64,000 nucleotides of DNA, taken from contig NZ_PGTB01000012.1 in NCBI RefSeq assembly GCF_002786325.1, positions 1 to 64,000 of the forward strand, read 5' to 3'. Each line of letters begins with the position of its first letter. The first letter of the stretch is position 1. The stretch comes from Pseudooceanicola lipolyticus (GTDB lineage: Bacteria; Pseudomonadota; Alphaproteobacteria; Rhodobacterales; Rhodobacteraceae). The position numbers and the translations under genes are program-made. Below are positions 20,513 through 48,710 of the stretch, one piece after another. The notes beneath the pieces were generated by a model that did not search any database, was not told where the DNA came from, and worked only from the letters and a program-made list of their open reading frames with translations.

Positions 20513-20780
20513 AGGCTTACTGATGCGCTTTCTCTTCCCAATCAGCCTTCAGGCTGAGACTGGTTGGGCTGGAAGCGAGGGCATCCGAGTCTTGGAATTT
20601 CAGCTTGAACAGATCGGAAGCGCCGAGGGCTCCCAACGATCTTGGATTGCTTTCTGCCAATCGCTCCAATCTTGCCATTGCAAGGTTGACACCGGGCAAG
20701 CCGGACCGCGACCCCCTTGGGTTCTATGAGAGGCTACTAGATATCGAGCTGAAAATTAGAGGGTTTTTCGTTCAGAAAGA
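20513..20780. other. Junction between ICE backbone and catabolic cargo
   Basis: The interval has no convincing gene. A 60-codon minus-strand frame (20517-20699) and a plus-strand frame from 20523 both lack ribosome binding sites and family resemblance. No IS end or long repeat is seen, so how the cargo was joined is not visible. Confidence 0.4.
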
Positions 20781-20798
20781 ACCAAAGGAAAACCAAAG
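20781..20798 (+). promoter_or_regulatory. SARP-type tandem heptamer upstream of tmoA
   Basis: ACCAAAG occurs at 20781-20787 and again at 20792-20798, an exact 11-bp period with spacer GAAA. SARP/BTAD activators bind such heptamer direct repeats overlapping the -35 region, about 8 bp before the -10. A weak -10-like ACTAAC starts 8 bp after the second repeat. The identical arrangement lies upstream of the P450 operon (29194-29211). Confidence 0.7.
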
Positions 20799-21018
20799 AT
20801 TGGCCCACTAACGTGATTCCCAAGCTGCACGGAAAGTGTGGAACTTGACAGAGCGCCTAACGGGAGGAGGGGCGCAATGTTCGGTCTTGGTTGGACGTCA
20901 ACAGCTATACATTGGCGGCTTACCGGAAAGCAAGCAAATCGGCCTCCCAGAGTTTTTCCCCGACCATCGGACATGGTTGGCACGGGGATCGTCAAGGCAC
21001 CAACTGGGAGATTTGTCC

Positions 21019-22503
21019 ATGCCGAAGCTGCAACGCCACGATTACTACGACATCGCCAGGGACATGAATTGGGCTTTCACCTATGTGCCCGAGGAAGATG
21101 CTTTCCCCGAGGCCCTGTCCAAGAGTTTCGGCATCGAGAACGAAAAGTGGTGGGGTTGGGATGAGCCTTACAAGCTGACCTATCGCGAATACGTTCACAA
21201 CCAGGCCGGCAAGGACGCGGGCATCTATTCGATCCGCTCGACCATCGCTCGCTCGAACATGTACGACAATCTCGACGAAGGTTGGAAGTCGGCGGTGAAA
21301 GCTCACTACGGCGCAATACCGGTGCCGGAGTATCTGGCATCGATTGGCGAGGCGCGGATGGCGCGTTTTGGCCGGGCTGCCGCTTGGCGCAACATGGCAA
21401 GCTTCGGCACACTTGACGAATGCCGTCATGGCCAGGCGCAGATCTACTTCCCCTACTGTCTGACTGACAAGGACCCGCAGATGGACTGGGCGCACAAGAC
21501 CGTCCACACCAACGAGTGGGCCGCGATCGCTGCGCGGAGCCTCTTCGATGATATGTTTACCGCCAACGATGCGGTTTCCACGGCGATCCAGCTGACCTTC
21601 ACCTTCGAAACCGGCTTCACCAACCTCCAGTTCCTCGGCATGTCGGCCGATGCGCTGCATGTGGGCGACGTCGAGTTCGGGGCGCTGATTTCCTCGATCC
21701 AGACCGACGAGGCCCGCCATTCGCAACAGGGCGAGCCGACGCTCAAGATCATGGTCGAGAACGGCCGGAAGGAAGAGGCGCAAAAGCTGGTCGATCAGAT
21801 GTTCTGGCGGTCGTGGCGCATCTTCGGTCTGCTGACCGGGTTCTCGATGGACTACTACACGCCGCTCGAGAACCGCACCATGAGCTTCAAGGAGTTTATG
21901 ACCGAGTGGATCGTCCGCCAGTTCGTCGACCAGTTCAAGGATCTCGGCATGGATCTGCCCTGGTACTGGGAGGAGCATTTCCTGCCTGAACTCGACTGGT
22001 ATCACCATGCCCAGCACCTCGGCGTGTGGTTCTGGCGTCCGACGGTGTGGTGGAACCCCGATGCCGGTGTGTCGCCCGACGAGCGGGATTGGCTGGAAGA
22101 GAAATACCCGGGCTGGAATGACAGCTTCGGCAAATACTGGGACGTGATCACCGAGAACGTTCGGGCTGGCAGGATCGAGAAGACCTATCCCGAGACGCTG
22201 CCGATGGTGTGCAACGGCTGCCAACTGCCGGTCACCGGCACCCATGCAGGCAAGAAACCGTTCAGCCATGTGCACAACGGTCGCAAGGTGACCTTCTGCA
22301 GCGAGATGTGCCAGTGGGTCTGGCAGAGCCAGCCCGAACGCTACGACACGCATCTCAACATCATCGACCGTTTCCTAGCCGGGCATATCCAGCCGCCGAA
22401 CCTCGAAGGCGCACTGCAATATATGGGGATCACGCCCGATGTCGCGGGCAACGATGCCGACAACTACGCCTGGGCGCAGCAAATGCGTCACGCGGCGGAG
22501 TAA
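21019..22503 (+). CDS. tmoA: Toluene 4-monooxygenase-type hydroxylase, alpha subunit
   Basis: A 494-residue diiron hydroxylase subunit. The ATG at 21019 follows GGGAG; the upstream open frame does not resemble the family. All six diiron ligands occupy the positions known from T4MO: Glu104, Glu134, His137, Glu197, Glu231, His234 (motifs DECRH and DEARH). Pocket residues Ile100, Ala107, Gln141, Phe176, Phe196, Thr201 and Phe205 are also as in T4MO, but position 103, glycine in T4MO, is proline here. With TmoE and TmoB it forms the (abc)2 hydroxylase that inserts O2-derived oxygen into the ring of toluene, giving p-cresol. Substrate is inferred from family and downstream genes; benzene or phenols are alternatives. 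Confidence 0.92.
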   Translation: MPKLQRHDYYDIARDMNWAFTYVPEEDAFPEALSKSFGIENEKWWGWDEPYKLTYREYVHNQAGKDAGIYSIRSTIARSNMYDNLDEGWKSAVKAHYGAIPVPEYLASIGEARMARFGRAAAWRNMASFGTLDECRHGQAQIYFPYCLTDKDPQMDWAHKTVHTNEWAAIAARSLFDDMFTANDAVSTAIQLTFTFETGFTNLQFLGMSADALHVGDVEFGALISSIQTDEARHSQQGEPTLKIMVENGRKEEAQKLVDQMFWRSWRIFGLLTGFSMDYYTPLENRTMSFKEFMTEWIVRQFVDQFKDLGMDLPWYWEEHFLPELDWYHHAQHLGVWFWRPTVWWNPDAGVSPDERDWLEEKYPGWNDSFGKYWDVITENVRAGRIEKTYPETLPMVCNGCQLPVTGTHAGKKPFSHVHNGRKVTFCSEMCQWVWQSQPERYDTHLNIIDRFLAGHIQPPNLEGALQYMGITPDVAGNDADNYAWAQQMRHAAE

Positions 22504-22593
22504 ACCGCGAAACATAAAGACAGTCCAAGCAGGCACTCGCGTCGCCGAGCGGAGCGGTGTGTCTGCCCGGACCCTGGAGATTTGGAGGAACAC

Positions 22594-22842
22594 ATGGCGA
22601 TGATCCCTTTGATGGCGGCCTTCCGAGGCGATTTTCTGACACAGCTCGTACCTGTGGACGATGGCGACGACATGGCCGCAGTCGCCGCCAAGGTCGCTCA
22701 TCACGCCGTCGGCCTGCGCGTCAAAGAGCGCGATGCGCCGATTGCCGTCTGGTTCAATGACAAGCAACTGCCCGCCGACATGAGCTTTGCCGAGAGTGGC
22801 ATCGGCGTGATGGACTACATCGAGGCTGGCTATGTCGAATGA
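22594..22842 (+). CDS. tmoB: Aromatic monooxygenase gamma subunit
   Basis: An 82-residue ubiquitin-like subunit; ATG 22594 behind GGAGGAACAC. MAMIPLMAAFRGDFLTQLVPVDDGDDMAAVAAKVAHHAVGLRV is typical of TmoB, followed by a conserved C-terminal IEAGYVE. It is the structural gamma subunit of the hydroxylase. Length is close to T4MO TmoB. It overlaps tmoC by 11 bp. Confidence 0.9.
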   Translation: MAMIPLMAAFRGDFLTQLVPVDDGDDMAAVAAKVAHHAVGLRVKERDAPIAVWFNDKQLPADMSFAESGIGVMDYIEAGYVE

Positions 22843-23203
22843 CTTGAACTGGGTTCCAGCGACCACGCTCGACGATCTGTGGGAAGGCGACTTCGTCGAC
22901 GTCGAGATCGAGGGCGAGGTCGTAATCATTCTTCATCGTGAAGGAGGTGAGCTTCGGGCCTTTCAGGGCATGTGTCCGCACCAGGAAATCCTGTTGGCCG
23001 ACGGTGATATCGACTTTGAGGCCGGAACAATCACCTGCTCTGCACATGAATGGCAGTTCGACATGGATTGCGGCAAGGGCATCAATCCCAGCGGCTGCCG
23101 CCTGTTTCAGTACGAAGTGAAACTCGAAGGTGAAAACGTTCTGGTCGGCGTGCCGACCGACGGTCGCCTTCGCCGTCTGCGCCACGAATCTGAGGACGCC
23201 TGA
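22832..23203 (+). CDS. tmoC: Rieske ferredoxin of the monooxygenase
   Basis: A 123-residue Rieske protein. Both cluster-binding motifs are intact: CPHQ (Cys-X-His) near residue 48 and CSAH (Cys-X2-His) near residue 70. It carries electrons from TmoF to the diiron site. Typical T4MO-type length is about 112 residues; the extra residues are a charged C-terminal tail. The start lies inside tmoB, so translation is probably coupled. Confidence 0.92.
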   Translation: MSNDLNWVPATTLDDLWEGDFVDVEIEGEVVIILHREGGELRAFQGMCPHQEILLADGDIDFEAGTITCSAHEWQFDMDCGKGINPSGCRLFQYEVKLEGENVLVGVPTDGRLRRLRHESEDA

Positions 23204-23214
23204 GGAGAACCAAC

Positions 23215-23511
23215 ATGGCAGAACAACAACCAAAGAAACTTGTAGGGCCGATCATTCGCGGCATTGATGACGACATCATCGATGCGGTGATCGGCGCTGC
23301 CGAGCAAGACAATCCGGACCGCGAGATCCTCGTCGAAGATCGCTCCGGCTACGTGCGGGTGCAGGCCGAACAGGCAATGGTTCTGACCGAGAAGAGCTTG
23401 ATCGAAATGCTGGGTCGCCCATTCCGGCTCTCGGAGCTTGAGCCGAGCCTCGTCTCGTTCGCAGGCAGGCTCAATACCATGGACGACCGCTGGGAATGGG
23501 CCCTTCGTTGA
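23215..23511 (+). CDS. tmoD: Effector/coupling protein of the monooxygenase
   Basis: A 98-residue cofactorless effector. The KLVGPIIRGIDDDIIDAVIGAAEQDNPDREILVEDRSGYVRVQAE block is characteristic of TmoD/MmoB-family proteins, which dock on the hydroxylase and control O2 activation and coupling. GAGGAGAACC precedes the ATG. It sits between the ferredoxin and beta-subunit genes, as in all tmo/tbu/iso clusters. Confidence 0.92.
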   Translation: MAEQQPKKLVGPIIRGIDDDIIDAVIGAAEQDNPDREILVEDRSGYVRVQAEQAMVLTEKSLIEMLGRPFRLSELEPSLVSFAGRLNTMDDRWEWALR

Positions 23512-23545: not shown

Positions 23546-24568
23546 ATGATCGCAAATTCAAAAACACGCAAACGCAAACAGCCGTGGAGCCTTTGGAACG
23601 AGAGGCGGGTGCCCTCGGAATATGAGGCCGTCACCTACAAGTTTCACAACCATTTCCGGAACGAACCGGCTCCCTTCGAACTGTCGGAGGAGTGGGGTAT
23701 CAACGTCTTCTACAAGACGAACCGTGAGGGCTCCGCATTGGTCGCGGCGGTCGAGGATTGGGAAGGCTACCGCGATACACGCGCCTATACCTACCGCCGC
23801 TATGTCGAAGATCAGAAGGACCGCGAGGTCTATTGCGACAACCTGATCGACGAATTCGAGACGCGCAACCACTATGCGAGCCTTGCCCCGGCCTGGCTGG
23901 ATTTCCTCGGAGAATTTTATCTGCCGGTCCGCTTCGCAGGCCACGCCCAGCAGATGAGTGCCGTCTATATCGGCCAGATGGCCCCCTCGGCCTTCGTCAC
24001 CAACACATTCTACTTCCAGATGGCCAACGAAATGCGCCGTGTCCAACGCCAGGCCTATCTGGCGCAGGTTCTGGCGATGGATACCGAGCGGCCGGAACTG
24101 GCGGACAGCAATCGCACCCGTGCCACATGGACTGGCGGTGCCACCTGGCAGGGCCTGCGGGAACTGATCGAGAAACAGCTTTGCGCCTATGACTTCGGCG
24201 AGGCCTTCGCATCGCGCCAACTCGTGCTGCGGCCGATCTTCGATCATCTGTTCAACACGGAGTTTGCCCGCATTGCCGAAGCCAACGACGATCGTCTTCT
24301 GACAATGCTTCACGACGATTTCCGTACCTATGACGAGGCATATGCCGTCGCAAACACTCAAGGCTTTGTCCAATATGCGGTCGAATGTGGCGATGGGAAT
24401 GCGGAGCTGCTGCGTTCGCTCGCTTCACGTTGGCAGCCATTGGGCGAGAAAGCCGCGCGTGGGATTGCTGAAGGGTTCGCGCAAGCGCAAGGAGCGGATA
24501 GCGCCGACGCAATCGTGGAGCGGACACTGGCGGCGCAGAGCGAACTGATCTCCTCCTGCGGGCTTTGA
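23546..24568 (+). CDS. tmoE: Aromatic monooxygenase beta subunit
   Basis: A 340-residue subunit; ATG 23546 is chosen for GGGAGG ten bases upstream. It has the ferritin-like fold of the beta chain but lacks the metal ligands, as expected. Recognisable segments are KQPWSLWNERRVPSEYEAVTYKF (N-terminus), WLDFLGEFYLPVRFAGHAQQM and NEMRRVQRQAYLAQVL. It dimerises with TmoA in the hydroxylase core. A strong hairpin separates it from tmoF. Confidence 0.9.
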   Translation: MIANSKTRKRKQPWSLWNERRVPSEYEAVTYKFHNHFRNEPAPFELSEEWGINVFYKTNREGSALVAAVEDWEGYRDTRAYTYRRYVEDQKDREVYCDNLIDEFETRNHYASLAPAWLDFLGEFYLPVRFAGHAQQMSAVYIGQMAPSAFVTNTFYFQMANEMRRVQRQAYLAQVLAMDTERPELADSNRTRATWTGGATWQGLRELIEKQLCAYDFGEAFASRQLVLRPIFDHLFNTEFARIAEANDDRLLTMLHDDFRTYDEAYAVANTQGFVQYAVECGDGNAELLRSLASRWQPLGEKAARGIAEGFAQAQGADSADAIVERTLAAQSELISSCGL

Positions 24569-24575
24569 GCCGCTG

Positions 24576-24598
24576 GGCCGGCGGCATCGCCGCCGGCC
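24576..24598 (+). other. Intercistronic hairpin between tmoE and tmoF
   Basis: GGCCGGCGGC (24576-24585), loop ATC, GCCGCCGGCC (24589-24598): a perfect 10-bp stem eight nt after the tmoE stop. With no T-tract, it is more likely an RNA-stability or partial-termination element, lowering reductase output relative to the hydroxylase. Confidence 0.55.
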
Positions 24599-24618
24599 GT
24601 CAAATTCAGGACACTCCG

Positions 24619-25608
24619 ATGAGCTACACCGTCACCATCGTGCCGGATGGGCCGAGCTTTGACGCCCAACCGGAAGAAACGCTCCTTGAAGCCGCACGGC
24701 GCGCCGGGGTCGCATTCCCGCACGAATGTGGTTGGGGTAGCTGCGGCACCTGCAAGGTTACGCTGGTCTCGGGCGATACCGAACTGTTGTTTCCGGATGC
24801 TCCGGCGATCAACCCTCGGGATGTGCGGACCGGGCGTATCGTAGCATGCCAATCCATGGCCCGAAGCGATCTCACCATTCGCCTCTCGCCGGCGGCCCCT
24901 CCGCAGCTTCCCGTTCCAGACCGCTTATTCGAAACTGAATTGGTGTCGGTAGAAGACCTAGCACCAGAGATTCGGCGCTTCACATTTCGTGCGGAAGAAG
25001 ACATCGACTTTCTGCCAGGCCAATACGCGATCCTTCACCTCGGGCCGGGTCTCAGGCGGGCCTACTCGATGTGCAACCTCCCGGGCGAGGGAGTGTTGCA
25101 GGTCATTTCCAAGCGCTATTCTGGTGGCTCCGGATCAGAGGCACTTGCTGCCATGGCCACGGGTGACCGGCTGACGCTGGAGGCGCCATTTGGCACCTGC
25201 ACACTGAATCGGAGTCCGGGGCGTAAGGTGTTCATAGCCGGGGGCACCGGAATTTCACCGATCCTTGCTCTGGTGCGTCAGGTGGCGCGGGAAGGCGTCG
25301 ACTTCGCTGCCCCCGTGGATGTTATTTACTGCGCTCGCCGCCCGGAGGATCTCGCGGCAAGTGCTGAGTTATCTGATGCTGTCGATCGTGTGGCTGGAGC
25401 GAGTTGCCGACTCTACGCCGAGGACTGCACAGGCCAACCGGCAGTGTCTTCCGGCCGGGCGACCGAGGCCATTGCCGAAACGCGCCACGACCCGGCCGAA
25501 ACCGAATTCTACGTGGCCGGGCCACCGGTAATGGTCAATGCGGTCAAGGCTCATCTAAAGGAGGCCGGTGTACCGATTACCCGGGTTCGCTATGACAGTT
25601 TCGGCTAG
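24619..25608 (+). CDS. tmoF: NADH:ferredoxin oxidoreductase of the monooxygenase
   Basis: A 329-residue reductase. Residues 1-95 form a plant-type 2Fe-2S domain with CGWGSCGTC (Cys-X4-Cys-X2-Cys) and a late Cys in VACQS. An FAD domain follows (LPGQYAILHL, RRAYSMCN near 155-165), then an NAD domain (FIAGGTGISPILAL). The C-terminal EFYVAGPPVMVNAV is standard. It transfers electrons from NADH to TmoC. The last 17 bp overlap the next gene, so the operon continues. Confidence 0.92.
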   Translation: MSYTVTIVPDGPSFDAQPEETLLEAARRAGVAFPHECGWGSCGTCKVTLVSGDTELLFPDAPAINPRDVRTGRIVACQSMARSDLTIRLSPAAPPQLPVPDRLFETELVSVEDLAPEIRRFTFRAEEDIDFLPGQYAILHLGPGLRRAYSMCNLPGEGVLQVISKRYSGGSGSEALAAMATGDRLTLEAPFGTCTLNRSPGRKVFIAGGTGISPILALVRQVAREGVDFAAPVDVIYCARRPEDLAASAELSDAVDRVAGASCRLYAEDCTGQPAVSSGRATEAIAETRHDPAETEFYVAGPPVMVNAVKAHLKEAGVPITRVRYDSFG

Positions 25609-26143
25609 ACAGCGAACCAACGCGGGTTCCGGTGTGCCTTTCCCGCCAGGTCTAAAACGACTTGTGCGCCGCACAGATGCAAGGCCACGCATCGAGCCCA
25701 GATGGCCATGCCAGCAATTGGAGCAAACCTCTGACCAGTCTCTACGCGATGCCCTTGAGCTAGCTGTTCTCGAATTTTCCGGCGTGTCAGCCTGTGCTAG
25801 CCCATTCGACGCGCCCGGTATCGGCTTTGCCCTGAACGACGATCTTGCTCGTGGACAGCCCGAAGCCTTCATCACTGGCAATTGCTGGCTATCGCTTCAG
25901 CCGACGGGTGCGATGCACCTGAGCCTGCGCCCGGAATGGGCGCAAAAGATCGTAAACCACGGCTGGGCCACGGTTCATCCCTTTGCCCGATATATGGCCG
26001 GAGCTGTGCCTCCGCAGAGCCTTGTCGTCTATGCGCCGCGCGATCCCGCGGAGCTTGCCGTTGTCTGCCGTATCGCAAGCGCCGCTCATGCCTACGCAAT
26101 GGGAAGGATCGGGGATGTAATTCTCCCCGATACCCGTTGGTGA
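25592..26143 (+). CDS. Luciferase-like/DUF5519-type protein in the tmo operon
   Basis: A 183-residue protein whose ATG overlaps the end of tmoF. It resembles the DUF5519 'luciferase family' fold: a GVSACASPFDAPGIGFALND segment, EAFITGNCWLSLQPTGAMHLSLRPEWAQKIVNHGWATVHPFA, and LVVYAPRDPAELAVVCRIAS near the C-terminus. The family has no established enzymatic role and is unrelated in sequence to flavin luciferases. Coupling to tmoF suggests an accessory role in toluene metabolism. Assignment is by memory of the family pattern. Confidence 0.6.
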   Translation: MTVSARQRTNAGSGVPFPPGLKRLVRRTDARPRIEPRWPCQQLEQTSDQSLRDALELAVLEFSGVSACASPFDAPGIGFALNDDLARGQPEAFITGNCWLSLQPTGAMHLSLRPEWAQKIVNHGWATVHPFARYMAGAVPPQSLVVYAPRDPAELAVVCRIASAAHAYAMGRIGDVILPDTRW

Positions 26144-26151
26144 CGAACGCG

Positions 26152-26613
26152 ATGGGCAAACCTGAACCTCAGTATTTTCGGGTGACCTTGAAGCGGCCCG
26201 AGGGCGTGTTTTCCTTGGACGCGCCTTCGGACGAGTACCTGCTCTACGCAATGCAGGATGCGGGTATTGAGAGTCCGTTCATTTGCGAGCAGGGCTGGTG
26301 TTTGGCTTGCGCCGCACTGTTGGTCGACGGTCAGGTCGACCGCTCTGCCGCGCTCACGAATTACCCGGAAGATGCCGCGGCTGGCTTCGTCCTGCTCTGC
26401 TCTTCACGGCCTCTTTCCGATCTCGTCTTGACGCAGGACGTCCACGAAACGCGCCGTGCCATGACGCAACACCGCATAGCCCATAACCAGCTTGCCCGGG
26501 CGTATCCACCGGGATCGAGAGCGGGCTTTCGACGTGGCCGCGCAGCGTCGACCGCACCAACACCTTGCTGCAATTCCAATAATTTAGGGAGGAATGAAAG
26601 TGATGAAACTTAG
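26152..26613 (+). CDS. Plant-type 2Fe-2S ferredoxin, accessory to the monooxygenase
   Basis: A 153-residue protein starting at ATG 26152. A plant-type ferredoxin domain fills the first 100 residues: FICEQGWCLACAAL gives Cys-X4-Cys-X2-Cys and VLLCSS the fourth ligand. Similar ferredoxins in phenol and dioxygenase clusters (DmpQ, XylT) reactivate catechol 2,3-dioxygenase, but no such enzyme is encoded here. The C-terminal 50 residues are basic and unconserved, and overlap ompW. It could repair or feed electrons to the diiron enzyme, which is inference. Confidence 0.75.
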   Translation: MGKPEPQYFRVTLKRPEGVFSLDAPSDEYLLYAMQDAGIESPFICEQGWCLACAALLVDGQVDRSAALTNYPEDAAAGFVLLCSSRPLSDLVLTQDVHETRRAMTQHRIAHNQLARAYPPGSRAGFRRGRAASTAPTPCCNSNNLGRNESDET

Positions 26614-27253
26614 AACATTGGCACTTACCTTGTCGGCGCTGGCGATCGCGCCCCCGGCTGTCGCAGATGACAGTAAGATCGGATGGTATCTTCAGCTTGG
26701 ACCCGCCGGCGTCGCCTTCTCAGAGGGTGCCAGTATTTCCGCCGGAGGCAGTACGATCCCGGGTGCCAGTACAACATTGTCCGACAATGTCACGCTCGGT
26801 TTTGGTCTCGGATATCGTTTCACCGAGGATTTTTCAGTCATCGCAATTGGCGGCATTCCCCCAACCACAACGATCAAAGGCACCGGACCGTTGAACGGAG
26901 TAACGGTCGGAAAGGTCACCTATGGCCCATTGATCGTGGCAGCCAACTACCACATACCGACGAAAGGAAAATTCCAACCCTTCATCGGGGCGGGCATCAA
27001 CTACACTATGGTGTTCGATACCAAGGACAGCGGGATCTCCAACTTAAAGGCTGACAGTGCCTTCGGAGGCGTTCTGCGGCTCGGCTTCGATTACATGGTA
27101 GACGATAGCAATGGCTTTTTCTTTTCGGCCAACAAGGTCTTCGTGAACACGAAGGCTACGGGCAACGCGGTTGCTCTCGGTGGTGCGCCGGTCGATGCGA
27201 AGATCGATCTGGACCCGCTCATTCTCCATGCGGGTTGGGTTCATCGCTTTTGA
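26603..27253 (+). CDS. OmpW-family outer-membrane protein
   Basis: A 216-residue beta-barrel protein with a signal peptide (hydrophobic LALTLSALAIA, cleavage after AVAD). ATG 26603 has GGGAGG at a workable distance; ATG 26594 is too close to it. The body has alternating strands ending in the typical ILHAGWVHRF, with a C-terminal Phe for outer-membrane insertion. OmpW/AlkL-type channels let hydrophobic compounds into the cell; placement behind tmoABCDEF suggests toluene uptake. Confidence 0.85.
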   Translation: MKLRTLALTLSALAIAPPAVADDSKIGWYLQLGPAGVAFSEGASISAGGSTIPGASTTLSDNVTLGFGLGYRFTEDFSVIAIGGIPPTTTIKGTGPLNGVTVGKVTYGPLIVAANYHIPTKGKFQPFIGAGINYTMVFDTKDSGISNLKADSAFGGVLRLGFDYMVDDSNGFFFSANKVFVNTKATGNAVALGGAPVDAKIDLDPLILHAGWVHRF

Positions 27254-30504: not shown

Positions 30505-30506
30505 GC

Positions 30507-37265: not shown

Positions 37266-37268
37266 GTG

Positions 37269-40775: not shown

Positions 40776-41974
40776 TGACCGAGGTTTTCATCTGCGACTA
40801 CATCCGTACCCCGATCGGCCGTTATGGCGGCGCGCTCTCGGCGATCCGGACCGACGATCTGGGCGCGATCCCGCTGCGGGCGCTGGCGGAGCGAAACCCC
40901 GGGATGGACCTTGCGGCGATCGACGAGGTGATCTTCGGTTGCGCCAATCAGGCTGGCGAGGACAACCGCAACGTCGCGCGGATGTCGCTCCTGCTCGCGG
41001 GCTACCCGGAGACGGTACCGGGCACCACGATGAACCGGCTCTGCGGTTCGGGGATGGATGCGGTCATCACCGCCGCCCGTGCGATCAAGGCGGCCGAGGC
41101 GGAACTGATCGTTGCGGGCGGGGTCGAGTCGATGTCGCGTGCACCCTTCGTCATGCCGAAGGCCACCACCGCCTTTTCCCGTGCGAACGAGGTGCATGAC
41201 ACCACCATCGGCTGGCGCTTAGTCAATCCGCTGATGAAGGCGCAATACGGCGTCGATTCCATGCCCGAGACGGCCGAGAACGTCGCCGAGGATTTCGGGA
41301 TCAGCCGCGCCGATCAGGATGCCTTTGCAATCCGCTCGCAACAGAAGGCGGGTGCCGCGATGGTAAGCGGCCGGCTCGCGCAGGAGATCGTGCCGGTCCA
41401 GATCCCGCAGCGCAGGGGCGCGCCGGTGATCGTGGCCGAAGACGAACATCCGCGACCCGCGACGACAATGGCGGATCTTGAGAAACTGAAAACCTTCGTG
41501 AAGGCGGACGGCACCGTGACGGCGGGCAATTCCTCCGGCGTGAACGACGGGGCGGCGGCTCTCATCCTTGCGACCAAGACGGCGGCACTGAAGCACGGCC
41601 TGACGCCCATCGCCAAGGTGCTCGGCGGCGCGACGGCTGGTGTGGCCCCCCGCATCATGGGGTTCGGCCCGGCGCCCGCGTCGAAGAAGCTGATGGCGCG
41701 GCTCGGGCTTGCGCCTGACGACTTTGCGGTGATCGAGCTGAATGAGGCCTTCGCCTCGCAAGGGCTGGCGACGCTTCGTGACCTCGGCATCGCCGACGAC
41801 GATCCGCGGGTGAACCCGAACGGCGGCGCCATCGCGCTTGGCCATCCCCTCGGCATGTCTGGCGCGCGCATCACCGGCACCGCGATGCTCGGGCTGGAGC
41901 CGGGCGAGAGGTCGCTCTCGACCATGTGTATCGGTGTCGGCCAGGGCATCGCCATCGCGCTGGAAGCGGTCTGA
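40775..41974 (+). CDS. pcaF: 3-oxoadipyl-CoA thiolase
   Basis: A 399-residue thiolase. NRLCGSGMDAV carries the nucleophilic Cys (near residue 90), GGAIALGHPLGMSGAR the catalytic His, and MCIGVGQGIA the second Cys. It cleaves 3-oxoadipyl-CoA to succinyl-CoA and acetyl-CoA, the last step of the pathway. The N-terminal VFICDYIRTPIGRYGGALS is the PcaF-type start. Confidence 0.94.
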   Translation: MTEVFICDYIRTPIGRYGGALSAIRTDDLGAIPLRALAERNPGMDLAAIDEVIFGCANQAGEDNRNVARMSLLLAGYPETVPGTTMNRLCGSGMDAVITAARAIKAAEAELIVAGGVESMSRAPFVMPKATTAFSRANEVHDTTIGWRLVNPLMKAQYGVDSMPETAENVAEDFGISRADQDAFAIRSQQKAGAAMVSGRLAQEIVPVQIPQRRGAPVIVAEDEHPRPATTMADLEKLKTFVKADGTVTAGNSSGVNDGAAALILATKTAALKHGLTPIAKVLGGATAGVAPRIMGFGPAPASKKLMARLGLAPDDFAVIELNEAFASQGLATLRDLGIADDDPRVNPNGGAIALGHPLGMSGARITGTAMLGLEPGERSLSTMCIGVGQGIAIALEAV

Positions 41975-41979
41975 GGCGG

Positions 41980-42894
41980 TCAGTTCGTTGGGTCTTCCTC
42001 CGCCTGCCGGTGCAGCAGCCTTGCCAGAAGATCGGCCGGGCTGTTTTCGCCGAAGGTAAATTTCCGCGTCAGCCCCACCGCGCCGGCCATGTAGTCCGAT
42101 TTCAGCGGCAGCGAGGCGAGCGTGCCGGCGCGCAGTTCGCGTTCGACCACCCCGCGAGAGATGAACCAGAGCATGTCGGACTGTTCCAGAAGCGCAAGTG
42201 CGACGGGCAGCGCCACTGTCTCGAAGGCGGGGACGACGCCCGAAAGGCCCATCGCGGACAGATAGCGGTCGACGCTATCGCGGATGATCGCACCGGGATT
42301 AGGCAGGATCAGCGGGAAGGCCGAAAGCGCCTCGCGCGACCGCAGCGACAGGGCAGGGTGGCCCGCGCGGGCGACCAACAGGATGGACTCGTCATAGAGA
42401 TACTCGAAGGCGAGACCCGGCATGTCCCGGGCCGAGGGCATCCGTCCAACCATCAGGTCGATCTTTCCGCCGCGCAGCATCTCGATCAGATAGCGGTTGG
42501 GGCCGGTGATGATGCCGATGCGCACTTCGGGGCGGTTTTGCGCTAGGGCGAGCGCGACCGAAGGGAAGAACCCGCCTGCCACGGTCGGCAGCACGCCGAC
42601 CTTGACGAGATCCGCCGCCGACCGGCCGGAAAGGTTGCGCACCCCCGCCTCAAGGCTCTGCACCGCCGCGAGCGCATGGGCGCGGAACCCTTCACCCGCC
42701 GGTGTCAGGATGGCGCGGCGACCGGCACGGTCGAAGAGGGTCGTGCCGAGCAGTGCCTCAAGCTCCGTAATCGTTTTCGACAGTGCGGGCTGGGACACGT
42801 TCCGTGCCCGTGCGGCTGCGGAAATGTTCCCGTTTTGCGAGACCGCGAGAAACGCCTCGAGATGACGCAGCTTCATGCCGTTTGGTATATTCAT
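41980..42894 (-). CDS. pcaQ: LysR-family activator of the pca genes (PcaQ)
   Basis: A 304-residue LysR regulator divergent from pcaD. The start at 42894 gives the N-terminus MNIPNGMKLRHLEAFLAV, which fits PcaQ; ATG 42876 is possible and neither has a good ribosome binding site. The helix-turn-helix is NISAAARARNVSQPALSKTITELE. PcaQ activates pcaDCHGB in response to pathway intermediates in Agrobacterium and Sinorhizobium. The same gene order here supports that role. Confidence 0.88.
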   Translation of the reverse strand: MNIPNGMKLRHLEAFLAVSQNGNISAAARARNVSQPALSKTITELEALLGTTLFDRAGRRAILTPAGEGFRAHALAAVQSLEAGVRNLSGRSAADLVKVGVLPTVAGGFFPSVALALAQNRPEVRIGIITGPNRYLIEMLRGGKIDLMVGRMPSARDMPGLAFEYLYDESILLVARAGHPALSLRSREALSAFPLILPNPGAIIRDSVDRYLSAMGLSGVVPAFETVALPVALALLEQSDMLWFISRGVVERELRAGTLASLPLKSDYMAGAVGLTRKFTFGENSPADLLARLLHRQAEEDPTN

Positions 42895-42970
42895 TTGGTT
42901 ATGCTTTTTGCATGAATTCGTATTTTTGTTAATAGGGGGATTATGCCACTTTGGCGACAGGAGGATCCCC

Positions 42971-43753
42971 ATGCAGGCTCTGGAACGCGACTGGGGCACG
43001 ATGCATCTGAACCTTTCCGGAGGGGATGGCACGGCACTGGTTTTTATCAATTCGCTCGGCACCGATCTGCGGATGTGGGACGCGGTCACGTCGCGCCTGC
43101 CGGCGAGTTTGCGCGCGCTGCGCATGGACAAGCGTGGGCATGGCTTGTCCGGGACCGGATCCCAAGGCTACAGGATTTCTGACCTGGCTGAAGATGTGAT
43201 CGCGGCTATGGATCACGTCGGAATTGCGCGCGCGGTGATTGTCGGCTGTTCCATCGGCGGGCTGATCGCGCAGCATATCGCGCTGATGACGCCGGGCCGG
43301 GTCATCGGTCTTGTCCTGTCGAACACCGCATCGAAGCTGGGCGCGGCGGAAGGCTGGCTGGAGCGCATCGAGGCGGTGCGCGTGAATGGCATGGCGGCGA
43401 TGGCGGACAATATCCTGCGACGCTGGTTCGGGCAGGCGATGCTGGACCGGCCCGAGGCGGCGCTTTGGCGTCAAATGCTCGCGCGGACGGATGCCGAGGG
43501 CTATATCGCCACCTGCGCCGCCATCGCGGGCGCTGACATCACGGACCGGCTGGGTGAGATCGCGCACCCCGCGCTGGTCCTCGGCGGCCAGCACGACCTG
43601 GCGACCCCGCCCGAGGTGGTCGCCAATCTTGCTCAGGCCCTGCCGCGCGCCGACTTTTTGATGTTCGAGACGACCGGCCACCTGCCGGCCGTCGAGGCGC
43701 CGGAGGCTTTTGCCGATGCGCTGATAAAATTCGTGGAGAGGATCACCGGATGA
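42971..43753 (+). CDS. pcaD: 3-oxoadipate enol-lactonase
   Basis: A 260-residue alpha/beta hydrolase; ATG 42971 follows CAGGAGGATCCCC. Gly-X-Ser-X-Gly-like nucleophile elbow VGCSIGG, oxyanion segment FINSLGTD, and a late ETTGHLPAVEAPEAFAD with the catalytic His are seen. It hydrolyses 3-oxoadipate enol-lactone. First gene of the pcaDCHGB operon; it overlaps pcaC by 4 bp. Confidence 0.92.
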   Translation: MQALERDWGTMHLNLSGGDGTALVFINSLGTDLRMWDAVTSRLPASLRALRMDKRGHGLSGTGSQGYRISDLAEDVIAAMDHVGIARAVIVGCSIGGLIAQHIALMTPGRVIGLVLSNTASKLGAAEGWLERIEAVRVNGMAAMADNILRRWFGQAMLDRPEAALWRQMLARTDAEGYIATCAAIAGADITDRLGEIAHPALVLGGQHDLATPPEVVANLAQALPRADFLMFETTGHLPAVEAPEAFADALIKFVERITG

Positions 43754-44133
43754 GCGAAACATTCGATCGCGGGATGGCAGTACGACGCGAAGTCCTGGGC
43801 AATGCCCATGTGGACCGGGCCGAGGCTGCCAAGACCGAATTCGACCTGCCGTTCCAGACGCTCATCACCGAAAGCGCCTGGGGCACGGTCTGGGCTTCAG
43901 ACCGCCTGACCCGGCGGGAAAGGTCGATGCTGACCGTCGCGCTTCTGGCGGCGACCGGCAATTTCGAGGAGATCCCGATGCATATCCGTGCCACCACGCG
44001 CACCGGCGCAACGAAAGCCGATATCGCGGAGGCGTTGCAGCATGTGGCGATCTATTCCGGCGTGCCGAGGGCGAACCATGCCTTGAAACTTGCCAAGCAG
44101 ACCTATGCGGAAATGGAGGAGAGCGAGGAATGA
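43750..44133 (+). CDS. pcaC: 4-carboxymuconolactone decarboxylase
   Basis: A 127-residue CMD/AhpD-fold protein: FDRGMAVRREVLGNAHVDRA at the N-terminus, SAWGTVWASDRLTRRERSMLTVALLAATGNFEE and AEALQHVAIYSGVPRANHALKLA. It decarboxylates 4-carboxymuconolactone to the enol-lactone. It overlaps both neighbours by 4 bp (ATGA). Confidence 0.93.
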   Translation: MSETFDRGMAVRREVLGNAHVDRAEAAKTEFDLPFQTLITESAWGTVWASDRLTRRERSMLTVALLAATGNFEEIPMHIRATTRTGATKADIAEALQHVAIYSGVPRANHALKLAKQTYAEMEESEE

Positions 44134-44858
44134 CTGACCTTGGACCGCTGATCCCGCGCAACCGCGCGATCCACCCGGCCCCCTACGATCCGGGTTACAA
44201 GACGAGCGTCGCACGCTCGCCCAACCTGCCGCTTCTGTCGATGGAAAGCTCTCCGTCGGAAGAGACTGGCCCAACGTTCGGCCACGGTCAACTCGGTGCG
44301 CTTGATAACAACCTGATCTTGAACTGGACCAAAGGCGCGGCTCCTGCCGTTGGCGAACGCATCCTGATGCACGGCCGTGTCCTCGACGAGATGGGCCGCC
44401 CGGTGCCTCAGACGCTGATCGAGATCTGGCAGGCTAATGCCGGCGGGCGCTACCGCCACAAGAAGGACACCTATTTCGCCCCGCTCGACCCCAATTTCGG
44501 CGGCTGTGGCCGCACCATCACCGATGAGACCGGCTATTATGAATTCCTGACGGTCCGGCCCGGGGCCTATCCTTGGCCAAACCGGGGTAACGACTGGCGA
44601 CCGATGCATATCCACATCTCGGTCTATGGTCACAGCTTCGGTCAGCGCCTGATCACCCAGATGTATTTCGAGGGCGACCCGCTGATCGGCCATTGTCCGA
44701 TTGCCGCGACGATCAAGGACCGCAGCCAGCTCGACCGGCTGGTCGCGCCGCTCGACTTCTCGAAGTCGCGCCCGCTCGATTTTCTCGCCTACAAATTCGA
44801 CATTGTCCTGCGCGGTCGCCGCCAGACCATGTTCGAGAACAAGTTGGAGGGCATGTAA
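44130..44858 (+). CDS. pcaH: Protocatechuate 3,4-dioxygenase beta subunit
   Basis: A 242-residue intradiol dioxygenase subunit that holds the non-heme Fe(III) site. GRVLDEMGRPVPQTLIEIWQANAGGRYRHKKD contains the first Tyr ligand; a second Tyr in the YYEFLTVRPGAYPW segment and the His-Ile-His of WRPMHIHISVYG complete the set. With PcaG it opens the ring of protocatechuate between the hydroxyls. Length is normal. Confidence 0.95.
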   Translation: MTDLGPLIPRNRAIHPAPYDPGYKTSVARSPNLPLLSMESSPSEETGPTFGHGQLGALDNNLILNWTKGAAPAVGERILMHGRVLDEMGRPVPQTLIEIWQANAGGRYRHKKDTYFAPLDPNFGGCGRTITDETGYYEFLTVRPGAYPWPNRGNDWRPMHIHISVYGHSFGQRLITQMYFEGDPLIGHCPIAATIKDRSQLDRLVAPLDFSKSRPLDFLAYKFDIVLRGRRQTMFENKLEGM

Positions 44859-44860: not shown

Positions 44861-45460
44861 ATGGTCCAGAAACTCGACACGCTGATCGAAACCGCGTCCC
44901 AGACCGCAGGGCCCTATGTCCATATCGGGCTGATGCCGACCTATGCGGGCAACGCCGGGTACTACCAGTTGGAGATCGGCACCTCGCCGATTGCTGGCGA
45001 CGTAACCGGCGAGGTCATCGAGATCGTCGGCTCGGTTTTCGACGGTACCGGCTGGGCGATGCGGGATGCGCTGATCGAAAGCTGGCAATGCGACGCGAGT
45101 GGTCTTTTCCCCGGCCAGGAGGGCGCCGACCCGAACTTCACCGGTCATTGCCGTTTCGCGGCTGATGCCGAAACGGGCGAGTTCACTTTGCGCACGGTCA
45201 AGCCAGGGTCCTACAAGGGACGCGGCGGGGCGGAATCCGCGCCACATATCTCGCTCTGGATCGTCGCGCGCGGGATCAACATCGGCCTCAATACACGGGT
45301 CTATTTCGACGATGAGGACAACTCCGAGGATCCGCTCCTCGGCCGCATCGAACAACGCCCGCGGGTCGACACGCTGATCGCCAAGAAGATCGGAGAGAGG
45401 AAGTACCGGTTCGATATCCGGTTGCAGGGACAAGGTGAAACGGTGTTTCTCGATCTCTGA
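44861..45460 (+). CDS. pcaG: Protocatechuate 3,4-dioxygenase alpha subunit
   Basis: A 199-residue alpha subunit. LIETASQTAGPYVHIGLMP is the standard start, followed by SVFDGTGWAMRDALIESWQCDASGLFP and HISLWIVARGINIGLNTRVYFDDE. It lacks the full iron ligand set, as expected of the alpha chain. The start is 2 bp after the pcaH stop. A terminator-like hairpin follows. Confidence 0.95.
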   Translation: MVQKLDTLIETASQTAGPYVHIGLMPTYAGNAGYYQLEIGTSPIAGDVTGEVIEIVGSVFDGTGWAMRDALIESWQCDASGLFPGQEGADPNFTGHCRFAADAETGEFTLRTVKPGSYKGRGGAESAPHISLWIVARGINIGLNTRVYFDDEDNSEDPLLGRIEQRPRVDTLIAKKIGERKYRFDIRLQGQGETVFLDL

Positions 45461-45480
45461 CCGGCTCGGCACGAGAACGG

Positions 45481-45507
45481 AAGGGGCGGCAAAGACTGCC
45501 CCTTTTT
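45481..45507 (+). terminator. Terminator-like hairpin between pcaG and pcaB
   Basis: GGGGC (45483-45487) and GCCCC (45498-45502) with a 10-nt loop, followed by TTTTT. It may partly terminate transcripts and lower pcaB relative to the dioxygenase. Confidence 0.6.
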
Positions 45508-45530
45508 GCCATGAGGAAAGGGCACCTACG

Positions 45531-46583
45531 ATGAGCGTTTCCGTCTTCGACCATCCCTGGCTCTCGGGCCACTTCGGCGACGCGGAGATGGCGGCGATCC
45601 TCGCTCCCGAGCGGCAGATGGCCCATATGCTCGCGTTCGAGGCGGTGTGGTCGCGGGCCTGCGGGCGCGCGGGCCTGTTCGATGCGGCGGCGGCCGAGGC
45701 GGCCACACGCGCGATCGAGACGGTGCGGATCGACCTTGCGGACATCGCCACCGGAATGGCGCAGGACGGCGTGCCCATCCCGCGCCTCGTCAAGCAGCTG
45801 AAGGCGGTCGCGGGATCGGAGGCGGTGCACAAGGGCACGACTTCTCAGGACGTCATGGACACGGCTCTGGCTTTGACCCTGCAAGAGGCGTCGGACCTCC
45901 TCGCCGCGCGTCTCGAGGTTCTTGCCGGCTGTCTCGACGGGCTCAACACCCGATTCGGCGATGCCCCGCTGATGGGGCGCACGCGGATGCAGGCGGCGGA
46001 GCCGATCACCGTGCGTGACCGGGTGGCGACGTGGCGGCTCCCTTTGGGCGATCACCTTGAACGGCTCGCGGTCGTGCGCAAGCGTGTCGAGAAGGTGCAG
46101 ATAGGCGGTGCCGCGGGCGACCGCAAGGCGCTGGGGCCGAAGGCCGATCAGGTCGTCGCCGATGTCGCGGCGGCGCTCGGCCTTGCCCCCACCGCCAGGG
46201 CGTGGCACGCGATACGGGACGGGGTGGCGGATTATGCGTCCTTCCTGTCGCTCGTCACCGGCACGCTCGGCAAGTTAGGGCAGGACGTTGTGCTGATGGC
46301 GCAGCAGGGCATAGACGAGATCGCGATGTCTGGCGGCGGTGGCTCCTCTGCCATGCCGCATAAGCAGAACCCTGTCGCGGCCGAACTTCTCCTGACGCTC
46401 GCGCGGTTCAACGCGGTGCAGGTTTCGGCCATGCACCTTGCGATGATCCATGAACAGGAACGCTCGGGGGCGGCATGGACCCTTGAATGGATGGTGCTGC
46501 CGCAAATGCTGATGACGACAGCACGCGCGCTTGCCGTCGCCATCGAGATTTCGCAGAGGATCACGCGGATCGGCCGCCCCTAG
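45531..46583 (+). CDS. pcaB: 3-carboxy-cis,cis-muconate cycloisomerase
   Basis: A 350-residue member of the fumarase/aspartase superfamily. The signature GGGGSSAMPHKQNPVAAE is at about 295-312, with KGTTSQDVMDTALAL and GRTRMQAAEP earlier. It lactonises 3-carboxymuconate. Shorter than the 450-residue gammaproteobacterial forms but normal for alphaproteobacteria. Its stop overlaps the pobA stop on the other strand by 4 bp. Confidence 0.92.
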   Translation: MSVSVFDHPWLSGHFGDAEMAAILAPERQMAHMLAFEAVWSRACGRAGLFDAAAAEAATRAIETVRIDLADIATGMAQDGVPIPRLVKQLKAVAGSEAVHKGTTSQDVMDTALALTLQEASDLLAARLEVLAGCLDGLNTRFGDAPLMGRTRMQAAEPITVRDRVATWRLPLGDHLERLAVVRKRVEKVQIGGAAGDRKALGPKADQVVADVAAALGLAPTARAWHAIRDGVADYASFLSLVTGTLGKLGQDVVLMAQQGIDEIAMSGGGGSSAMPHKQNPVAAELLLTLARFNAVQVSAMHLAMIHEQERSGAAWTLEWMVLPQMLMTTARALAVAIEISQRITRIGRP

Positions 46584-47749
46584 AAGGGCAGCCCGATATA
46601 GTTTTCCGCCAGGTCCCGCCGCGCGGTTTCAGAGTGCGCCAGATGGCTCAGCGTGGCTTTCCGCATCTGTTCGGCAAAGGCATCTTCGCCGTCGAAACGG
46701 TGCAGCATCGTCGTCATCTGCCAGCTGAAACGCATGGCTTTCCAGATCCGGGCCAGCGCTCGGGCAGAGTATTCGTCGATACCGGTCGTGCTCTTTCCAT
46801 TCAGCGCGTCAATCAGCGTGGTATAGAGGTAGTATACGTCCGAGGCGGCAAGGTTCAGGCCCTTCGCGCCAGTCGGCGGCACAATATGGGCGGCATCGCC
46901 CACCAAGAACAGATTCCCCCAACGCAGCGGTTCAGAAACGAAGCTGCGCAGCGGAGCGATACTTTTCTCAATGGACGGCCCGGTTACAAGGCGCCTGGCG
47001 GCTTCTGACGGAATGCGACGCGAAAACTCGTCCCAGAAGCGCTGATCCGACCAATCCTCAACCGTATCGCTGAGCGGCACCTGCACATAGTAGCGCACGA
47101 GATTTTCGTTGCGCATCGACGCCAGCGCAAAACCGTGACTGGAATTGGAATAGATAAGCTCATCATTCACTGGCGGAGTTTCCGACAAGATACCGAGCCA
47201 ACCAAAAGGATAGACCCGCTCAAACTCACGGCGTATTTCATCGGGAATAGTCCTGCGGGAAACGCCGTGGAAGCCGTCGCATCCTGCCACGTAAAAACAA
47301 TTGAGGCGCTTGCGTGTGCCCTCATGGGTAAACTCGATATGGGATTTCGCCTGGTCGAGGTCGTGGATTTCCACTTCGGACACGTCGTGCAGGATCGTCG
47401 TGCCCATCGCGTCCTGCGCCGCATAGAGATCGGTTGTCACCTCGGTCTGGCCATAGACCATAACGCGCTTGCCGGTGAGCTCCTTAAAGTCGATATGGAT
47501 CATCGTCGAGTCATCAGACAGATAGCACCCGTCGTGTGGGATGCCTTCTGCATCCATTCGCGCCCCGACACCGGCTTCGTGCAGCAACTCAACCGTGCCC
47601 CACTCAAGGATCCCGGCACGAATCCGCGCCAGAACATGCGCACGGCTCGACCGTTCCAGTATAACGGTTCCGATCCCCGCACGGTTGAGCAACTGGGACA
47701 GCAGCAACCCTGAAGGTCCACCGCCGATGATGGCGACCTGTGTGTCCAT
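46580..47749 (-). CDS. pobA: 4-hydroxybenzoate 3-monooxygenase
   Basis: A 389-residue flavoprotein hydroxylase: VAIIGGGPSGLLLSQLLNRAGI (FAD), a central CDGFHGVSR (DG motif, NADPH) and LVGDAAHIVPPTGAKGLNLAASD (GD motif). It hydroxylates 4-hydroxybenzoate to protocatechuate. ATG 47749 matches the family N-terminus; a TTG at 47758 has a better-spaced GGGAGG and may be the true start. It is the link between the cresol operon and the pca genes. Confidence 0.94.
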   Translation of the reverse strand: MDTQVAIIGGGPSGLLLSQLLNRAGIGTVILERSSRAHVLARIRAGILEWGTVELLHEAGVGARMDAEGIPHDGCYLSDDSTMIHIDFKELTGKRVMVYGQTEVTTDLYAAQDAMGTTILHDVSEVEIHDLDQAKSHIEFTHEGTRKRLNCFYVAGCDGFHGVSRRTIPDEIRREFERVYPFGWLGILSETPPVNDELIYSNSSHGFALASMRNENLVRYYVQVPLSDTVEDWSDQRFWDEFSRRIPSEAARRLVTGPSIEKSIAPLRSFVSEPLRWGNLFLVGDAAHIVPPTGAKGLNLAASDVYYLYTTLIDALNGKSTTGIDEYSARALARIWKAMRFSWQMTTMLHRFDGEDAFAEQMRKATLSHLAHSETARRDLAENYIGLPF

Positions 47750-47849
47750 GGTGATCAATGCCGTTTCCTCCCGTATCTTTGCTGAACCGTAGCTCGGCAT
47801 ACGCCGCCAACGAATGGACTGTATCGTCATTGACTGGTACTATTCAGGC

Positions 47850-48710
47850 ATGACCGACGCGCATTCGATCCCGCTCTTCAATCTCTTCGGCGAGACGACG
47901 GTTTTCCCTGACGTCGTGCATTGCGAACGTGTTCTGGATCGCGCCGGCCTGCATGATTGGGTCATTGCACCGCACCGGCACAGCCAGATGTCGCAAGTCT
48001 TCTTCATTGAGCATGGTTCCGCACATGTAGTGCTGGACGGCGCCGAAGAGAGGCTGGCTAGTGGCCGGTATCTTTACGTCCCGCCACAAATCGTACATGG
48101 GTTTGAATTCACCCGCGGTACCGAGGGGACTGTTCTTTCGTTCCCCTCACCGGTCGTTTCCCGGCTGGGCCCGAAGGCCGCTGCATTAACATCCTGGCTG
48201 GCGACCCCTCAGCGGGGAGTCGTAACGGCGGACGTTGCGCAACTCATCGCGGCACTTGCTGCAACATATACTTCTACTGGCACATTTCGTGCACAGAGGT
48301 TGGTCGCGCTCGCCCATGTTCTTCTCGCAACGCTGGCCGAAGACGACCTCGCCGATGCCGCATTCGAGGATCCGCAGGCCGGACGGCAGATTCAACGGCT
48401 TGACGCGCTCATCGCCAAGCATCTGACCGACGGTTGGGCCGGGCGGGATTATGCGGCGGCTCTTCACGTCACGACCGGTCATCTTAACCGTATCGTTCGG
48501 ATGGCGACCGGGCGCAGCCTGACGGCACATCTCGAGACCGCAACGATGACCGAAGCGTGCCGGCTGATCGCTTTCACCCGCCTGCCACTGGCCGAGGTGG
48601 GTTACCGGCTTGGATACTCCGACCCTTCCTATTTCTCGCGCCGCTTTCGCTCCCGAATGGGTGAAGCTCCGTCGGCGTATCGTAAGAGGGTGGTTGGGTC
48701 AGAGCTCTGA
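47850..48710 (+). CDS. pobR: AraC-family regulator of pobA (PobR type)
   Basis: A 286-residue regulator with ATG 47850 and only a weak CAGG upstream. The N-terminal cupin (APHRHSQMSQVFFIEHGSAHVVLDGAEERL, YLYVPPQIVHGF) binds effector, and the C-terminal AraC domain has two helix-turn-helices ending LAEVGYRLGYSDPSYFSRRFRSRMGEAPSAYRKR. It is divergent from pobA, as AraC-type PobR is in other proteobacteria, so it probably activates pobA with 4-hydroxybenzoate. It is the last cargo gene before the transfer genes. Confidence 0.88.
   Translation: MTDAHSIPLFNLFGETTVFPDVVHCERVLDRAGLHDWVIAPHRHSQMSQVFFIEHGSAHVVLDGAEERLASGRYLYVPPQIVHGFEFTRGTEGTVLSFPSPVVSRLGPKAAALTSWLATPQRGVVTADVAQLIAALAATYTSTGTFRAQRLVALAHVLLATLAEDDLADAAFEDPQAGRQIQRLDALIAKHLTDGWAGRDYAAALHVTTGHLNRIVRMATGRSLTAHLETATMTEACRLIAFTRLPLAEVGYRLGYSDPSYFSRRFRSRMGEAPSAYRKRVVGSEL

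Follow-up and report, generated by a model that had tools for sequence, protein, structure and literature searches.

Positions 20513..48710 of a 64,000-nucleotide stretch of the Pseudooceanicola lipolyticus genome (the window, which takes in 64,000 of the 64,907 bases of its contig) form the catabolic cargo of a probable conjugative island, in which genes of a toluene monooxygenase type (tmo) are followed by genes resembling the cresol-phosphate (cre) operon of Corynebacterium glutamicum and by pca and pob genes. The cargo starts after the stop (20512) of a relaxase gene (18743..20512; DUF3363/Relaxase in Pfam) and extends to the end of an AraC gene (48710), 90 bp before the start of the traG/virD4 coupling protein gene (48801..50840). 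All genes lie on the forward strand unless stated otherwise. The order is tmoABCDEF with a luciferase-domain gene, a ferredoxin gene and an OmpW gene, then a BTAD-type regulator, the P450-kinase operon, an IclR regulator, pcaIJF, pcaDCHGB, and pobA with a divergent AraC gene. Every tmo, cre-type, pobA and pca gene named in an earlier sequence-only reading of this DNA (the original prediction) is present where that reading placed it, PcaB being recognised by a single family model (see below). The luciferase-domain gene, the second ferredoxin, OmpW and the BTAD-type regulator between tmo and cre come in addition to that list, as do a LysR gene after traG and a tyrosine-integrase gene (62809-63999).

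The tmo operon consists of tmoA for the diiron hydroxylase alpha subunit (21019..22503; the reading frame opens at 20836 and the start, M62, is predicted from the alignment), tmoB (22582..22842; PF06234), tmoC for a Rieske ferredoxin (22832..23203), tmoD for an MmoB/DmpM effector (23215..23511), tmoE for the hydroxylase beta subunit (23546..24568, a predicted start in a frame opening at 23438) and tmoF for the reductase (24565..25608). The domains accord with these names (Phenol_Hydrox in both hydroxylase subunits, TmoB, Rieske, MmoB/DmpM and a Fer2/FAD/NAD reductase). Against solved structures TmoA scores 652 bits with ToMO, 639 with T4MO and 156 with phenol hydroxylase, and the operon shares with these group-2 diiron monooxygenases its six-gene order A-F, the diiron ligands, the Rieske ferredoxin and the effector. 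In the alignment, all six diiron ligands of ToMO are retained in TmoA, as are ToMO residues 100, 107, 141, 176, 196, 201 and 205, and Met180 is replaced by Phe. These residues do not fix the regiochemistry; para-hydroxylation of toluene is a prediction. The window operon differs from T4MO and ToMO in a Pro at ToMO position 103, in the placement of its TmoA in a clade with Xanthobacter, Ancylobacter, Thermomicrobium and Rhodococcus copies, and in three extra genes: the luciferase-domain gene (25568..26143; PF17648), whose relatives adjoin tmo in Rhodobacteraceae N326-Z (locus L009) and in loci L049 and L051, a plant-type [2Fe-2S] ferredoxin gene (26152..26613, start predicted) and an OmpW-type outer membrane protein gene (26594..27253) with a possible role in hydrocarbon uptake. 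The luciferase-domain protein and this ferredoxin are putative tmo accessories, and a luciferase-domain gene with a small ferredoxin gene after tmoF is found in several tmo clusters of the clade (window 25568-26613; L049 20591-22628; L051 16601-17553).

Downstream lies the BTAD-type regulator gene (27349..28842), and a BTAD gene is also found upstream of alphaproteobacterial cre loci. Spacing within tmo and within cre is at most 78 bp or negative, and the two sets probably have separate promoters because 414 bp precede the P450 gene. The second operon comprises a creJ-like P450 (29257..30504), a creI-like ATP-binding kinase subunit (PPDK_N; 30492..31574), a creH-like kinase subunit with the PEP-utilizers swivelling-His domain (31635..33446), a creD-like HD phosphohydrolase (HD1; 33516..34121), a creC-like aldehyde dehydrogenase (ALDH; 34131..35570), a second HD protein (HD2; 35567..36187), a creG-like short-chain dehydrogenase/reductase (SDR) of alcohol dehydrogenase type (36138..36941), a creF-like [2Fe-2S] ferredoxin of the Fer2 family (36951..37265) and a creE-like ferredoxin reductase (37266..38489), so that both redox partners sit in the P450 operon. 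The best PDB chains for the P450 are 5xjn/7ccf and 5gwe (about 505 bits; next chain 277), which we take to be C. glutamicum CreJ, the listing reading only 'Cytochrome P450'. Identity to the 5xjn chain is 55.0% for the window protein and 72-73% for the Rhodococcus and Microtetraspora copies, and 98 positions are identical throughout an alignment of 30 rows (the window, 28 relatives and the 5xjn chain). The heme-ligand region and the AGHETT motif are present and the ferredoxin cysteines are intact, CreH keeps the PEP-utilizer His motif (SHAAIVCRE), and both HD proteins keep the HD and DADK motifs. Identity to actinobacterial cre loci is 39-42% for HD1, which occupies the CreD position, 36-39% for the ALDH and 57-61% for the SDR; HD2 corresponds to a protein encoded upstream of cre in Rhodococcus ruber and R. 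zopfii (46%).

In the available text of PMC7764795, C. glutamicum creC is assigned to a benzaldehyde dehydrogenase, creD to a phosphohydrolase, creE, creF and creJ to the P450 system, creG to an alcohol dehydrogenase, and creH and creI to a 4-methylbenzyl phosphate synthase; the same enzymes are named in the available portions of PMC9549646 and PMC8796525. Each of these eight roles, creC to creJ, has a counterpart in the window, which thus shares all of those of the C. glutamicum 4-cresol pathway (CreHI, CreJEF, CreG, CreC and CreD). The differences lie in the order (P450-I-H-HD-ALDH-HD-SDR-ferredoxin-reductase), in the additional HD protein, in the BTAD regulator upstream, and in the joining of cre to tmo, pob and pca.

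CreHI, HpeHI and PpsAB are all described in the available text of PMC12167813 as two-part, ATP-dependent aryl kinases resembling phosphoenolpyruvate (PEP) synthase, an architecture that the phenol dikinases HpeHI and PpsAB share with the window CreHI. As a difference from CreHI, HpeHI and PpsAB fall into separate clades according to the accessible part of PMC9618137. A tree of 28 CreH-type proteins, in which cre kinases are represented by those next to CreJ-like P450s (C. glutamicum CreHI and HpeHI are not among its rows), places the window among 24 rows from cre loci, in a clade with Rhodococcus loci ordered creJIHGFEDC, split at 100/100 from the other 4 rows. These four, flagged as long branches, comprise one protein beside phenylphosphate carboxylase, which is the PpsAB-type row, two near biotin carboxylase genes and one that is unannotated. 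The window CreH is only 47% identical to the Azoarcus protein adjoining phenylphosphate carboxylase, and a role of the kinase as phenylphosphate synthase was rejected on the tree and the neighbouring genes. Its matches to solved structures are PEP synthases and cover its last 110 residues. Separately, two-part PEP-synthase-like kinases lie near biotin carboxylase genes in Rhizobium (L005 10001-19160, also with an acetoacetate-CoA ligase gene) and Thermomicrobium (L119 8998-13508), neighbourhoods which suggest phosphorylation-linked carboxylation of a ketone.

The remaining cargo encodes an IclR regulator on the reverse strand (38500..39264) that passes the PcaR/PcaU/PobR model (TIGR02431), pcaI (39364..40083), pcaJ (40080..40775), pcaF (40757..41974), pcaD (42875..43753), pcaC (43750..44133), pcaH (44130..44858), pcaG (44861..45460, a predicted start in a frame opening at 44693), pcaB (45435..46583), pobA on the reverse strand (46580..47830; TIGR02360) and, divergent from it, an AraC-type regulator that is PobR-like by position (47814..48710). 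PcaI, PcaJ, PcaF, PcaD, PcaC, PcaH, PcaG and PobA score above their NCBIfam cut-offs, while PcaB passes NF004631 (452.9 against 371) but stays below the TIGR02426 cut-off (337.8 against 355.75). The 900-bp interval between pcaF and pcaD (41975-42874) holds two open reading frames with no family match, of 206 amino acids (Pfam and NCBIfam) and 122 amino acids (Pfam).

Taken together, this gene content is best read as a mobile catabolic island that probably encodes a route from toluene through p-cresol and p-cresyl phosphate to 4-hydroxybenzoate and beta-ketoadipate. TmoABCDEF would hydroxylate the toluene ring, mainly at the para position, to give p-cresol, and the two-part CreH/CreI dikinase would phosphorylate the phenol oxygen with ATP as donor. 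Supplied with electrons by the ferredoxin and its reductase, the CreJ-type P450 would then oxidise the methyl group of p-cresyl phosphate, with the SDR and ALDH helping in the steps from alcohol to aldehyde to acid, and one or both HD phosphohydrolases would remove the phosphate to yield 4-hydroxybenzoate. PobA would convert this to protocatechuate, and PcaHG, PcaB, PcaC, PcaD, PcaIJ and PcaF would carry protocatechuate on to succinyl-CoA and acetyl-CoA. Each reaction, the para preference, induction of the genes and transfer of the element are predictions, drawn from observed gene families, gene order, clade membership, the failure to find a PchF- or Dmp-type alternative in the assembly and the recurrence of the pairing in other genomes.

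The arrangement of tmoA near a P450 and a PEP-synthase-like pair, for which the original prediction suggested a search, recurs in N326-Z, in the Rhodococcus plasmids pRB98 and Y14 unnamed1 and on a contig of R. opacus ATCC 51881; with a probable further case in a Maritimibacter metagenome-assembled genome (MAG), at least three gene orders are represented. N326-Z (L009, L058, L059) has tmo-BTAD-cre-IclR-pcaIJFD in the order of the window at 65-95% identity, with transporter and DmsC-type genes beyond this stretch. The contig of the Maritimibacter MAG HKST-UBA93 begins within a cre-type ferredoxin reductase gene, of which it contains the end (67%), followed by tmo (TmoA 93%), ferredoxin and BTAD genes; this linkage is partial because the remaining cre genes lie off the contig, and the other cre locus of this MAG (L038) is separate. 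In R. oxybenzonivorans pRB98, tmo is followed by an IclR gene, creJIHGFEDC and, about 7 kb beyond, a second tmo operon facing cre, and in the R. ruber Y14 plasmid cre is followed by a tmo operon facing it at a distance of 0.35 kb. Both plasmids thus have tmo and cre side by side as in the window, but in another order and orientation, with TmoA at 67% and CreH at 61-62% identity and no pob or pca genes annotated in the stretches read. In R. opacus ATCC 51881 cre and tmo lie about 7 kb apart on what is presumably one 26,791-base contig, both recorded sizes agreeing, and R. zopfii has both on different contigs. No near-identical plasmid copy of the window's tmo-cre stretch was found (four records matched, none covering 80%). 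Two side observations concern these plasmids: in R. oxybenzonivorans a different tmo operon lies on each side of cre (L002, L120), and several hypothetical genes of about 130-230 amino acids occur in runs beside the tmo operons of pRB98 and pRWAY01 (L002 20916-25457; L050 9555-13697; L120 1-2078).

In a TmoA tree of 22 rows (21 chosen of 42 extracted, plus one R. opacus copy), the sequences of Xanthobacter dioxanivorans and Ancylobacter polymorphus join those of the window, N326-Z and HKST-UBA93 (100/99). Eight Rhodococcus copies stand apart (100/98), and the two tmo types of Rhodococcus, which both lie near cre in pRB98, form distinct clades. Because of this tree and the different gene orders, the comparison favours at least two separate joinings of tmo and cre, the alternative being loss of cre beside the Xanthobacteraceae TmoA copies. 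The joining of T4MO-type chemistry to phosphorylation-first cresol oxidation, as originally predicted, thus draws support from the family assignments, the CreH tree and the recurrence elsewhere. No open-access paper joining tmo and cre was found by title or abstract start among the matches listed, a search that does not cover the primary cre papers; the link on an alphaproteobacterial element may be undescribed, as had been suggested, although its presence in Rhodococcus means that it is not special to such elements. For R. opacus 1CP, the available text of PMC13101518 gives ortho and meta routes for p-cresol and contains no match for 'phosphorylat'.

The cre operon itself, which the original prediction knew from actinobacteria, is not confined to them: the cre P450 (E <= 1e-130) occurs in 12 of 345 sampled Rhodobacteraceae genomes, the window's included. 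Among the 61 closest relatives, a P450 match (E <= 1e-60) was found in two besides the window, one of them only 36% identical, and among 11 plasmid records with a match (E <= 1e-80) identity exceeds 43% only in the two Rhodococcus tmo-cre plasmids. Genome contigs scanned with the P450 alignment gave 31 loci, of which 21 have kinase genes, two end at the P450 at a contig end and eight have no kinase in the available stretch. Within the Rhodobacteraceae the cre operon is thus uncommon, and most copies are not accompanied by tmo. TmoA was found in two of the 345 genomes (that of the window and one that presumably is N326-Z, with matching contig coordinates and score), both of which also have the P450 (hypergeometric probability 0.0011).

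Several observations weigh against the proposed toluene route. The two family genomes with both genes have closely related clusters and hardly represent two events, so that the hypergeometric value counts as one event and recurrence in other gene orders is the stronger argument for linkage. TmoA (E <= 1e-30) was found in only four of 22 genomes with a cre P450 (N326-Z, HKST-UBA93, R. opacus and R. zopfii; the count omits L018, from the same isolate as L017) and was not found in the genome of Celeribacter persicus, the neighbour of the window and N326-Z in the CreH tree. The fetched N326-Z stretches have no match to pcaC, pcaH, pcaG, pcaB or pobA, nor to relaxase or traG. HD1 has no convincing match among solved structures and none to a solved phosphatase, TmoA has Pro at the position of ToMO Glu103, and absences across the assembly (5.23 Mb, 99.16% complete) are soft because it consists of 439 contigs with 5.68% contamination. 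Outside tmo-cre loci, the nearest relatives of TmoA are those of X. dioxanivorans and A. polymorphus (83% identity), with no cre genes in the stretches read around either, and the TmoA clade may act on other substrates, since ZM13 is reported in the available text of PMC12542641 to initiate 1,4-dioxane breakdown. Finally, TmoA at 60% identity or more occurs in six plasmid records; cre adjoins it in two of them and is absent from the stretch read in the other four (Xanthobacter, Ancylobacter, Rhodococcus WAY2 and Thermomicrobium).

These last two points, the sharing of luciferase-domain, ferredoxin and OmpW genes by the Ancylobacter tmo cluster, the frequent occurrence of cre alone and the 414-bp gap with its suggestion of separate promoters all favour a different view, in which Tmo serves for cyclic ethers, chloroethenes or other alkylbenzenes, cre-pob-pca serves for external p-cresol, and the two are separate capacities, sharing an element only through the accumulation of cargo between relaxase and traG. 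This explanation is nonetheless unlikely, as close linkage recurs in several orders in Rhodococcus and other Rhodobacteraceae, and as CreH, CreI and the cre P450 were found in none of 15 regions around more distant TmoA copies (47-59% identity; 14 other genomes of the class), which represent 18 of the 25 other TmoA places and eight of which end early at contig ends. Chance proximity was rejected as the principal explanation on the same contrast between recurrence across genomes and gene orders and absence from these regions.

Less probable still is that toluene is not the main substrate and that Tmo instead hydroxylates p-xylene, ethylbenzene or some other alkylbenzene, with cre oxidising the resulting alkylphenol. 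Group-2 diiron monooxygenases are promiscuous, and one solved CreJ ligand is presumably an ethylphenyl phosphate, which would accommodate such substrates. However, PobA and the full pca set fit 4-hydroxybenzoate and therefore point to a p-methyl phenol without further ring substituents. Very improbable is a double hydroxylation by Tmo to 4-methylcatechol, opened by another route with cre as an accessory: ToMO, the closest solved relative, does hydroxylate phenols further, but no catechol-cleavage genes occur among the cargo genes scanned (the rest of the genome was not searched for catechol dioxygenases) and no Dmp-type phenol hydroxylase was found in the assembly.

In the classical T4MO pathway p-cresol is handled by p-cresol methylhydroxylase. 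This enzyme (PchCF), noted originally as missing, was not found here either: there is none among the cargo genes scanned, and no PchF-like protein is seen in the assembly because all five FAD-oxidase_C proteins (PF02913, which we take to cover PchF) fit GlcD models best. Host use of p-cresol by PchCF was therefore rejected for want of a candidate. A Dmp-type phenol hydroxylase was likewise rejected for this role, the only other Phenol_Hydrox genes found being on contig C309, where they score best with methane monooxygenase (211 bits; T4MO reaches 108). This diiron operon (L131 5317-14426) has chaperonin, amidohydrolase and alcohol dehydrogenase genes nearby; chaperonin and alcohol dehydrogenase neighbours also occur in propane monooxygenase operons, and the operon appears propane-monooxygenase-like. 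A second pobA lies on contig C385.

To the left of the cargo, the backbone consists of genes for ArdC, ParB, Toprim, RepA, ParA, DUF2840, a TraF-type peptidase, DUF736, a transglycosylase and the relaxase, and to the right of TraG, a ribbon-helix-helix-like protein, LysR, TrbB, TrbE, TrbL, VirB8-type, TrbG-type and TrbI proteins and, after the trb genes, a tyrosine integrase (Phage_integrase; 62809..63999, reverse strand). The Tn4371-type order RepA-ParA-DUF2840-TraF-relaxase-cargo-TraG-Trb is thus present, with the cargo after the relaxase, as in Tn4371-like integrative and conjugative elements (ICEs), whose variable region is placed in the available text of PMC2789088 between the relaxase on one side and traR and traG on the other. 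According to the accessible part of PMC11448139, traR lies downstream of the cargo in 30 of 32 members of the Tn4371 family, and the alpha I/II relatives of Tn4371 have neither cargo nor traR at the relaxase-traG site. In the window, by contrast, the gene preceding traG is the AraC gene and a LysR gene (51880-52836) lies downstream of traG, with the integrase gene beyond trbI; because LysR follows traG, the element is described as Tn4371-related and not filed within the family. One Tn4371-family toluene element with a toluene monooxygenase, ICETn4371-6054 of C. metallidurans, uses meta-cleavage (PMC9960961, available text), unlike the window, and the words cresol and P450 do not occur in the available text of that review of degradative ICEs.

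The relaxase-traG site is empty in Sphingobium pCHQ1, where 25 bp separate the two genes, and in Mesorhizobium B2-1-1, where the distance is 21 bp. TraG relatives occur in 326 plasmid records at E <= 1e-150. In Indioceanicola the same site holds about 5 kb with a CBASS-type gene (L121 2392-6581). A search of 20300-49000 for long repeats of transposon type (18 bases or more) listed only short imperfect matches, none of them linking one cargo end to the other. The contig ends at 64907, past the integrase, with no chromosomal flank or att site visible (no search was aimed at att sites). With the transfer backbone and an integrase gene present, the conjugative island proposed originally is graded as probable, and the element is likely an ICE.

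A broader proposal, possible but tentative, is that a toluene para-monooxygenase and phosphorylation-first cresol oxidation have been joined on more than one occasion, among Alphaproteobacteria as well as in Rhodococcus, to form a second and overlooked route of toluene mineralisation beside that of T4MO and p-cresol methylhydroxylase, which in the window makes up a single transferable package together with pob and pca. In such a route the phosphate would retain cresol in the cell, reduce its toxicity and be a recognition handle for the P450. The modules are known singly; their sum, if true, would add another full aerobic pathway for toluene, one that passes through a phosphorylated intermediate and is borne on an apparently transferable element. 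It would place a phosphate-handle P450 in a hydrocarbon pathway, make tmoA with creJ/creH a marker pair for such degraders, and change the reading of genomes that have tmo without p-cresol methylhydroxylase.

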